From assembly GCA_003244015.1 (NCBI GenBank), contig QHBR01000269.1, forward strand, positions 1 to 39,430: a DNA stretch of 39,430 nt, written 5' to 3'. The position numbers were made by a program, and so were the translations under genes. This stretch comes from Hyphomicrobiales bacterium (lineage in GTDB: Bacteria; Pseudomonadota; Alphaproteobacteria; Rhizobiales; Beijerinckiaceae). Below, piece by piece: positions 17,843-21,960 of the stretch. How positions within the stretch are numbered: position 1 is the first letter of the stretch; each line of letters begins with the position of its first letter. The notes under the pieces were generated by a model. It saw nothing but the letters and a program-made list of their open reading frames with translations. It searched no databases and had not been told where the DNA came from.

Positions 17843-18687
17843 ATGGAGCGGCCTTCCCCGCTGGGTTTCGGCCTCGGTCTGCGGCCGGTCTACTACCAGG
17901 ACATCCTTGAGAAGAACCCGAGGGTCGACTGGTTTGAAGTGATTTCCGAGAATTTCATGGTTCCCGGCGGCGGCCTCTTGCGATGCTCGAGCGGATTCGC
18001 AACACCTATCCAATCGTGATGCACGGCGTCTCGATGTCGATCGCTTCAACCGCGCCGCTCGATTTCGACTATCTCAGGGCGCTCAAGAGCCTCGCCAGCC
18101 GTTTTCAGCCGGCATGGATCTCGGATCATTTGTGCTGGACCGGCGTGCACGGCGTCAATCTGCACGACCTCCTGCCCGTTCCCTATACGTTGGAGGCGCT
18201 GGACCACGTCGTCGACCGCATAAGGCGGGTCCAGGATTTCCTCGGGCGCCGCCTCGCGATCGAGAACGTGTCCAGCTACGTGACGTTCGCCGAATCCGAG
18301 ATGGACGAATGGACGTTTATCCGCGAGTTGGCAGAGCGCGCCGATTGCTGGCTTTTGCTCGATGTCAACAACGTCTTCGGTTCGAGCTTCAATCATAGTT
18401 TCGATCAGGCAAGTTTTATCGGCGCCGTTCCGGCCGATCGCGTGGTCCAGTTGCATCTCGCGGGCCATTCGGAGGCGGGGACGCACAAGATCGATACGCA
18501 CGATCAGCCGATCTGCGAGGAAGTTTGGTCGCTCTATCATGAGGTCTGCCCACGGTTCGGATCGATCTCGACGATGATTGAGCGCGACGACAACTTTCCG
18601 CCGTTCGACGAACTCATGGCGGAACTCGATCGCGCGCGAGCGGTCGCTGCTTGCGCGAGAATCCCAGCGCAGGGGGCCGCGGCATGA
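17843..18687 (+). pseudogene. bufB: DUF692 / multinuclear non-heme iron oxidase BufB, split by a frameshift at about 17963-17976
   Basis: Frame [44 protein letters not shown]. Frame B (ORF 17983..18687): [26 protein letters not shown]...WISDHLCWTGVHGVNLHDLLPVPYT...IENVSSY...LLDVNNVFGSSFNH. Together they form a canonical DUF692 protein. Confidence 0.85.
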
Positions 18688-19460
18688 AGCTCGCCGAACT
18701 GCAAATGCGATTCCAGGCCGGAATAGTGGAAGACGATAACGCGATTCTCGCCTCGATCGCGGATTCGCGGAGGACGGATCGCGCGACCCTGTTTGAGGTC
18801 TATCACGACGCTTATCGCTTGCGTCTGGCGGAATTTTTGTCGAACGACTTTCCGGTTCTTCGGGTTCACATCGGCGAGGAAGCGTTCGGACGTCTTGTCG
18901 AAGACTATATCGAGTCGGCCCCGTCGCGTCAGCCGAACGCGCGATGGTACGGCACGCGCCTGCCCGATTTCATGCAAGAGACGGCGCCATGGCGAAGGAA
19001 CCGGAGCGCCATTGATCTGGCGCGGTTCGAGCGCGCGCTGTCCGATGCCTTCGATGCCCCCGATGCTCCGATAAGCACTATCGATGCCTTGCGGGAAATC
19101 TGCGATGAAGACTGGCCGCGCCTCGCCTTCGAATTCCACCCGAGCGTCAGAATTCTCGATCTCGAAAACGGAACCGCGCAGATCTATGCGGCTCTCGCCG
19201 AGGAAGAAGAGGCGCCGGCCACCCAGCAAGGCGAGGAAGCGTTCATCTTCTGGCGCACCGATGGCCAGTCCTTCTATCGCCCTGTCGCGGACGACGAACG
19301 CATGGCGATGATGGAGGCAAGACGGGGCAAGATTTTCGGAGATATTTGCGCGCTTCTCGTTTTCCAGCGGAACGACACGGGCGTGACGCAGCGGGTCGCC
19401 GGCTTCCTCTCGCAATGGTTCGCCGACGGGCTCGTCACGCGATTGTCGCTCTCGGATTGA
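18684..19460 (+). CDS. bufC: DUF2063 / BufC-type DNA-binding-domain-containing protein
   Basis: MKLAELQMRFQAGIVEDDNAILASIADSRRTDRATLFEVYHDAYRLRLAEFLSNDFPVLRVHIGEEAFGRLVEDYIESAPSRQPNARWYG; 4-bp ATGA overlap with bufB. Confidence 0.85.
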   Translation: MKLAELQMRFQAGIVEDDNAILASIADSRRTDRATLFEVYHDAYRLRLAEFLSNDFPVLRVHIGEEAFGRLVEDYIESAPSRQPNARWYGTRLPDFMQETAPWRRNRSAIDLARFERALSDAFDAPDAPISTIDALREICDEDWPRLAFEFHPSVRILDLENGTAQIYAALAEEEEAPATQQGEEAFIFWRTDGQSFYRPVADDERMAMMEARRGKIFGDICALLVFQRNDTGVTQRVAGFLSQWFADGLVTRLSLSD

Positions 19461-19570
19461 AGCACTCTCACCGGCAGTTCCAACTCGTTGCTCGGCCGGC
19501 CCCATCGGCGTTTGGCGTCTTGCGGACCAGCGAATGGCGTGCAAAGTCCTTTGCGCACGAGGTTAATGAG

Positions 19571-21058
19571 ATGAAAGCGATGGACGTCGATGCAACCGTT
19601 CTCGCGCGGCGCGCGAAAATTGTCGCCGCCTTGCGAAGCATTGTTCCCGGCGAAGGCGTCATCGAGCAAGAGACCGGCCGGCGGCCTTACGAAAGCGACG
19701 GCCTGACCGCTTACCGGGCCTTGCCCATGGTCGTCGTTTTGCCAGACAGCGTCGCGCAACTGCGCGCCGTGCTCGCCTATTGTTACGCGCACAATGTGAA
19801 GGTCGTTCCGCGCGGCGCCGGAACCTCGCTCTCTGGCGGCGCCCTGCCGCTCGAAGACGGCGTTTTGCTTTCGATGATGAAATTCAACAAGGTCAAGGAG
19901 ATCGATTTCGACAACCGCTTTGCCGTCGTCGAGCCTGGCGTCACCAATCTCGCGATTACCCGGGCGGTCGAGGCGCAAGGCTTTTATTATGCGCCTGATC
20001 CCTCCTCGCAAATCGCGTGCTCGATCGGCGGCAATGTCGCGGAAAATTCGGGCGGCGTGCACTGCCTCAAATACGGCCTCACCACCAATAATGTCCTGGG
20101 CTGCGAGATGGTGCTGATGACCGGCGAGGTCATAAGGCTCGGCGGACGCCATCTCGACCAAGCGGGCTACGATCTGCTCGCTCTTGTCATCGGCTCGGAG
20201 GGAATGCTCGGCGTCGTGACCGAGGTAACGGTACGCATTTTGCGCGCGCCAGAATCTGCCCGCGCCTTGCTGATTGCATTCGACTCCAGCGAATCGGCGG
20301 GGGCCTGCGTCGCCGGCATTATCGCAGCCGGCATTATTCCGGGCGGCATGGAAATGATGGACAAGCCCGCGATCCAGGCGGCGGAAGATTTTGTCCATGT
20401 CGGCTATCCGCGCGAGGCTGAGGCGCTGTTGATCGTCGAGCTCGACGGCCCTCCGGTCGAAGTAGATCATCTCGTTTCGCTCGTCGAGAAGATCGCTCTC
20501 GCCCATGGCGTTTCAAACTGCCGGATTTCCGCCTCCGAGGCCGAGCGCCACGCGTTCTGGGCCGGACGCAAGGCGGCTTTCCCGGCGGTCGGCCGCCTCT
20601 CGCCCGATTATTATTGCATGGACGGCACGATCCCGCGCAAGCAATTGGCAAAAGTTCTCACAGGGATCCGGGAATTATCGGAGCGCCATGGCTTGCGCGT
20701 CGCCAATGTCTTTCACGCGGGCGACGGTAATTTGCATCCTTTGATCCTCTATGACGCCAACAATCCCAGCGAACTTTTACGTGCGGAAGAATTTGGCGCG
20801 GATATTTTGCGGCTTTGTGTGAAGCATGGCGGCGTGTTGACCGGCGAGCATGGCGTCGGCGTCGAGAAACGCGACCTGATGCCAGAAATGTTCAACGACA
20901 TCGATCTCGCCCAGCAAATCAACGTCAAATGCGCGTTTGATGCAAAGCAACTCCTTAATCCTGGAAAAGTCTTTCCGACGCTCCATCGCTGCGCGGAGCT
21001 AGGCCAGATGCATGTGCATGGCGGGCAATTGCGGTTCCCGGATATTCCGAGGTTTTAG
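19571..21058 (+). CDS. glcD: FAD-linked oxidase, glycolate oxidase subunit GlcD
   Basis: VVPRGAGTSLSGGALPLEDGVLLSMMKFNKV, GGVHCLKYGLTTNNVLG, VANVFHAGDGNLHPLILYD, GVLTGEHGVGVEKRDLM. Confidence 0.93.
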   Translation: MKAMDVDATVLARRAKIVAALRSIVPGEGVIEQETGRRPYESDGLTAYRALPMVVVLPDSVAQLRAVLAYCYAHNVKVVPRGAGTSLSGGALPLEDGVLLSMMKFNKVKEIDFDNRFAVVEPGVTNLAITRAVEAQGFYYAPDPSSQIACSIGGNVAENSGGVHCLKYGLTTNNVLGCEMVLMTGEVIRLGGRHLDQAGYDLLALVIGSEGMLGVVTEVTVRILRAPESARALLIAFDSSESAGACVAGIIAAGIIPGGMEMMDKPAIQAAEDFVHVGYPREAEALLIVELDGPPVEVDHLVSLVEKIALAHGVSNCRISASEAERHAFWAGRKAAFPAVGRLSPDYYCMDGTIPRKQLAKVLTGIRELSERHGLRVANVFHAGDGNLHPLILYDANNPSELLRAEEFGADILRLCVKHGGVLTGEHGVGVEKRDLMPEMFNDIDLAQQINVKCAFDAKQLLNPGKVFPTLHRCAELGQMHVHGGQLRFPDIPRF

Positions 21059-21071
21059 CCGTGTGTTGTCG

Positions 21072-21121
21072 CGCCGATCGTACCAAAACGTTTCACGTGA
21101 AACGTTTTGGTACGATCGGCG
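21072..21121. promoter_or_regulatory. 50-bp perfect palindrome containing a parS-like core GTTTCACGTGAAAC
   Basis: CGCCGATCGTACCAAAACGTTTCAC|GTGAAACGTTTTGGTACGATCGGCG; every position pairs. The central 14 bp match the parS consensus TGTTnCACGTGnAACA except its two outermost bases. Confidence 0.75.
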
Positions 21122-21335
21122 GACGGGGCAAATATACTTTCGCAAGGCGGCGGCGAAGTGCGGCGCGGGGATTTGGAGCGAGCGAAATAATGCGCTAGTA
21201 TCTAACTTTCGTCCTGGTATTTTTTAAAAATTTTCTTTCCGGCTAGACCAGAACCGAGCCTGCGCGGCGGTTAGTTGTTGGCAAGCGCGAGGCATGTCCG
21301 GGATTGGGATGATGCAACGATGAGGAGGAATGACG

Positions 21336-21476
21336 ATGGACCGGATCTTGTTGATCGGCGGGGCAATGGTCGCGGTTGGGATTGCATTGGCGGCGGTTTT
21401 TATGCTCGTCGCCCGTCATGGAGCGACATTCGAGATGCTCGAAGATAGCGTTGTGCGCTGGATCGGGAAGGTGTGA
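21336..21476 (+). CDS. small single-TM protein (46 aa)
   Basis: MDRILLIGGAMVAVGIALAAVFMLVARHGATFEMLEDSVVRWIGKV*, preceded by GAGGAGGA. Confidence 0.45.
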   Translation: MDRILLIGGAMVAVGIALAAVFMLVARHGATFEMLEDSVVRWIGKV

Positions 21477-21492: not shown

Positions 21493-21960
21493 TCAACCGA
21501 TTTGCCATGCTGATTTCGTTCGAACAAAAGCGTTGAGGATTGTCAGGAGCTGACGGAGGCAGGCGATGATGGCGACCTTTTTTGGCGTGCCGCGCTGGAC
21601 AAGGCGCTGATAGGTTTTTTAACCACGGGGTTGTGCCGGATTGCGACGAGGCCCGCCATGGACAGGAAGTTGCGGACGGAAGTTCTTCCGCCTGCGAGCA
21701 TTCGGCGGCCGCGCCATGCGCCGGAATCGCAATTGAACGGCGCGACGCCGACAAGGGCAGCGAGTTTTCGGCAGTCGAGGCCGCAAAGTTCCGGCAGATC
21801 GGCGATGCGGGTTCTGGCGGCAACGGGACCTACGCCTGGCACGGAGGTGAGGAGGTCTTCCGCCTCGCGCCAGGCGGGCGAGGCGCGCACGCCCGCGGCG
21901 ACGTCGGCGAGTTCCTTTTCGAGGAAGGCGACATGGCGGCTCCCTTCGAGCCGTTTCGCA
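21493..21960 (-). pseudogene. IS110-family transposase C-terminal remnant
   Basis: RHVAFLEKELADVAAGVRASPAWREAEDLLTSVPGVGPVAAR...ELCGLDCRKLAALVGVAPFNCDSGAWRGRRMLAGGRTSVRNFLSMAGLVAIRHNPVVK, then frame change at A6 (21615-21620), then TYQRLVQRGTPKKVAIIACLRQLLTILNAFVRTKSAW. Confidence 0.85.

Follow-up and report, generated by a model that had tools for sequence, protein, structure and literature searches.

A dispersed intergenic palindrome with a parS core in Beijerinckiaceae: a probable parS-homologous, REP-like repeat family

Chromosomal parS sites, the centromere sequences of ParABS systems, are normally located almost exclusively adjacent to the replication origin. Extra parS copies away from the native cluster or the permissive zones impose a fitness cost in Caulobacter, and the ter region is an unfavourable location for them in P. 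aeruginosa and B. subtilis (PMC5815017). The ParB protein of P. aeruginosa binds many scattered half-parS sites, which are proposed to retain ParB on the nucleoid (PMC10419367). The locus described here carries a complete parS core inside a palindrome located just downstream of a glcD-like gene, and this palindrome belongs to a repeat that is dispersed through intergenic regions.

The window (the whole stretch of DNA analysed, 39,430 nucleotides) belongs to a genome of 3.59 Mb in 429 contigs (G000). We infer a Methylocapsa or USC-alpha-like organism of a clade of soil methanotrophs because exact 30-mer matches in the genome contig search were confined to USCa_AHI, Methylocapsa bog_942 and two unrelated MAGs; the exact 30-mer scan for a viral source of the repeat found none. 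The palindrome (21072–21121) consists of two arms of 25 nt (21072–21096 and 21097–21121) that are 100% complementary with a spacer of 0, and its central 14 bp (21090–21103) match the parS core of the family, GTTTCACGTGAAAC, at 14/14 bp, so that the self-complementary structure and the parS-like centre described in the first-pass annotation were both confirmed. One other site in the window lies within two mismatches of this core (shuffles expect 0.08). The left half-module, CGATCGTACCAAAAC-GTTTCAC, occupies 21075–21096 on the plus strand and the right one, the same sequence on the other strand, 21097–21118 on the minus strand. A gap of 13 nt separates the stop codon of the glcD-like FAD-linked oxidase gene (19415–21058, plus strand) from the palindrome, which is followed by a sequence of ~100 nt called tail A (21119–21224, plus strand); this tail is found 3' of the palindrome at ~10 loci with 65–81% identity. 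Tail A shows a weak pattern resembling a promoter, for which the promoter scan gave no support. Other features of the neighborhood are a 46-residue membrane-like ORF (MDRILLIGGAMVAVG..., 21336–21476), with a start region that is conserved after tail A in two relatives (G152 and G156), the remnant of an IS110-family transposase on the minus strand (21543–21890, ~420 bp from the palindrome) and, at 17983–19460, an MbnB/TglH/ChrH-type RiPP-modifying enzyme adjoined by a DUF2063 protein.

The repeat unit, ~44 bp in most copies, is made of two head-to-head half-modules CAATCGTACCAAAAY-GTTTCAC with the parS core at its centre. Recurring variants of the half-module carry CGTACC, CTTACC, CGCACC or CGGACA at positions -18 to -13. 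Outside the unit, ~10 copies have tail A (on the right side in the window) and ~10 others a different tail B. The two halves of one copy are uncorrelated among the 52 copies of G156 (arm agreement 416 versus 415.0 when shuffled), and a weak arm symmetry signal is present in the G000 copies (P 0.006). A constraint on the dyad or on an RNA hairpin had looked plausible on the 26 copies of the G000 type and was not borne out by the independent halves of G156, which indicate that the long dyad arises from one module repeated twice and not from selection for base pairing. The perfect 50-bp dyad of the window is thus best read as a good instance of the unit and not as a constrained structure. The half-module motif (AATCGGACAAA / AACCTTACAAGG) is found again in direct orientation ~16 nt outside the unit in many copies of G000 and G154–G156. 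In several copies (L003, L006, L030, L035, L036, L038 and L025:7032) the unit breaks off at +7 from its centre, where GAGACCTGGGCGCGGG or a close variant takes over; this sequence may be an element that uses the palindrome as its target, and in L030 a fragment of an IS5-like transposase is present ~290 bp away.

The exact 14-mer core occurs 29 times in G000, compared to 0 for a reversed control pattern at zero mismatches. These 29 cores comprise two sites upstream of mnmG, one inside a predicted coding sequence (L031; the gene is of the htpG type in our own reading of its codons, and the match is probably a coincidence) and 26 dispersed repeat copies, which become ~40 once damaged copies are counted. 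Most genomes of the family have 1–3 cores and nearly all those sampled 0–3; the count exceeds three in only six of 149 (the window genome, G049, G071, G074, G130 and G143). Two of these, G143 and G071, belong to another genus and harbor 31–34 near-parS cores (L051, L061–L078) within a composite GTTC-N7-GTT(C/T)CACGTGAAAC, which resembles a LexA box situated next to promoter-like sequence and looks like a separate phenomenon. Inside the genus, the dispersed half-module is present in 6 of 15 genomes (G000 and G152–G156) and the remaining nine have 0–1 matches, so the arms do recur at other sites and in relatives, a check that the earlier annotation had proposed. The five genus members without the dispersed form that were scanned for the core have exactly two cores each, separated by 2.2–2.3 kb; at the loci examined, one of the two lies upstream of mnmG.

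Is the parS match a coincidence of the repeat sequence? When copies were chosen by their arms alone, leaving the central 18 bp free, the exact core was recovered in 62 of 74, and per-base conservation was 97–100% over the 14 core positions and 70–80% at the two adjacent bases. The border of conservation coincides with the edge of the parS core, which makes a chance match unlikely. The arms point in the same direction. The arm GTGAAACATTTTTAGAATNATTCTAAA of G155 and of some G154 copies also flanks the true parS in G000, G153, G154 and G156, and the 20 G155 copies that were compared, in the arm that starts with GTGAAACATTTTT(A/T)GA, agree at 17–21 of 22 bases with whichever of the two parS arms of G000 is the closer match. 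The bases at -9/-8 of the dispersed copies agree with those of each species' own parS sites, being AG only in G153, AC and GT in G156, and AT in G000 and G154, a co-variation that is suggestive because there are ~4 true-parS halves per species.

For at least 10 G000 sites, a minority, the corresponding locus of G156 or G153 was found to carry a copy too, in flanking DNA that is ~69–84% identical. Identity between orthologous pairs decreases outward from the core (96%, a value inflated because the copies of the relatives were located through the core) to 78% in the inner arms, 67% in the outer arms and 59% in the flanks. At the glcD locus, the unit persists in G152 with one core change and with tail A, whereas G156 retains the left arm and tail A and has lost the core and the right arm; in congeners that do not belong to the clade the unit is absent there, at a divergence too great for a clean empty site. 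An assembly fold-back, raised initially as an artefact that might explain the palindrome, is excluded as a general cause, since the unit recurs at numerous loci unrelated to each other, some of them in the two genomes assembled as single contigs, and the orthologue of the glcD site carries the unit in G152 and has lost half of it in G156.

The exact 14-bp core next to glcD might be taken for a classical chromosomal parS with symmetric flanks or, as was also suggested from the window, for a lone centromere, either variant or cruciform-forming. The former is scarcely credible and the latter was not borne out, the palindrome being one among dozens of dispersed repeat copies. G000 has its own parS, two cores identical to that of the palindrome and located upstream of mnmG on contig C141, together with parA and the start of a ParB gene that is broken by the contig end (134 residues visible); ParB is intact in G153 and G156 with the normal motifs GERRWRAAQRAG and GKSRSHV. 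L094 (C299) encodes another ParB-like protein, a weaker one (50.6 bits, under the cut-off), next to apparent IS21-type transposase genes. The distance between the glcD orthologue and parS is ~1.08 Mb in G153 and 0.66 Mb in G156, so that the window copy, provided that synteny holds, is not origin-proximal. Thus both copy number and position contradict the parS reading; the copies are genome-wide, unlike the few sites clustered by oriC and parAB that characterize a chromosomal parS. The copies might instead form a functional set at which a ParB-like protein or another chromosome organiser (Noc-, SlmA- or MatP-like) acts, with selection on where they lie along the chromosome; this is improbable as well, if less so. 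Of the two single-contig genomes with the repeat, G153 (3.33 Mb) and G156 (4.15 Mb), the latter lends it something, as does the core conservation: the G156 copies are spread evenly all round the chromosome (Rayleigh p ~0.93 on 52 mapped copies, a lower bound because the region above 3.38 Mb is incompletely represented), and a 407-kb gap free of copies (2.081–2.488 Mb) holds parS (P ~0.02). However, this gap is less clear in G153, where the copies lie 0.27–1.39 Mb from parS, a regular spacing was rejected in G156 (no better than chance, P 0.46), only the minority of G000 sites mentioned above was found shared with G156 or G153, and the core is that of parS and of no known Noc site. The proposal of a Noc-like site also lacks its protein in G000, since the sole strong ParB-family protein, the partial one of 134 residues, scores 143 bits against a cut-off of 315 for the Noc model.

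A role at transcript 3' ends was also considered, in which an ordinary REP/BIME-like repeat would act as an RNA stem-loop, in RNA stability or in bidirectional termination and the parS match would be irrelevant to ParB. The gene context agrees with it: according to genes predicted by a home-made coding-potential caller, 0 of 86 copies in the relatives and few in G000 are located within genes, the closest gene boundary is a stop codon for 26 of 41 copies in G000, 12 of 14 in G153, 38 of 52 in G156 and 11 of 20 in G155, and many copies lie 23–60 nt from that stop. The RNA of the palindrome also folds strongly (z -5.35), although Rfam models returned for the bare hairpin only weak microRNA matches far under the gathering score. 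Against this role, the palindrome has neither a T tract after a G+C-rich stem nor a terminator-like match, which upholds the first-pass opinion that an intrinsic terminator was the weaker reading; the absence of co-variation between the G156 halves leaves no visible sign in that genome that pairing is constrained; sequence, and not pairing alone, is fixed in the core; and the arms held in common with the parS locus are left unexplained. The terminator and RNA-hairpin readings are accordingly weakened, and we consider a purely 3'-end role unlikely, though less remote than either of the positional readings.

The explanation that we favor, with reasonable confidence, is that these palindromes are clade-specific, REP-like intergenic repeats homologous to parS, whose intact copies carry the complete parS core and are predicted ParB nucleation sites. 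In the ancestor of the clade, either the parS unit itself or some repeat into which it had been incorporated would have multiplied. Because the core is what determines parS recognition, ParB would be expected to bind the intact copies, and hence repeat copies genome-wide. A bolder version, for which the sequences make a tentative and rather doubtful case, is that in this methanotroph clade a centromere sequence became a dispersed repeat and that ParB may be loaded at tens of full sites chromosome-wide in the course of normal organisation. Fifty working full parS sites would be unexpected given that extra parS sites are costly or disfavoured (PMC5815017). No account of a REP-like repeat family built around a parS core was found in the literature (open-licence papers). 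A natural clade with 14 to >50 copies of the parS core all round the chromosome provides a test of why parS stays origin-proximal, and it lets one ask what ParB, together with the SMC complex loaded by it, does when nucleation sites are everywhere.

Compared with known systems, the repeat has the 14-bp palindromic core of the chromosomal parS of ParABS; unlike chromosomal parS, which is present in few copies near the origin, it exists in tens of copies chromosome-wide and its core lies inside longer arms. It shares with the half-parS of P. aeruginosa, its nearest precedent in function, a scattered distribution of motifs and ParB binding, known for the half-parS and predicted for the repeat, but the half-parS are 7-bp half sites found genome-wide (PMC10419367) whereas the repeat consists of full palindromes in a dispersed family. 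By the definition of REP/BIME elements (PMC12306157), it is short, palindromic, extragenic and multicopy, is often located shortly after stop codons and has modular arms; it differs from them in having tens of copies and not hundreds, a parS core and arms common to the parS locus. A RAYT protein above the cut-off was not detected in G000, where the single Y1 transposase is of the IS200 type (26.7 bits with the RAYT model versus 80). The repeat is therefore REP-like by its anatomy, though without a RAYT, and, though its number and position are unlike those of a centromere, it is parS by its core.
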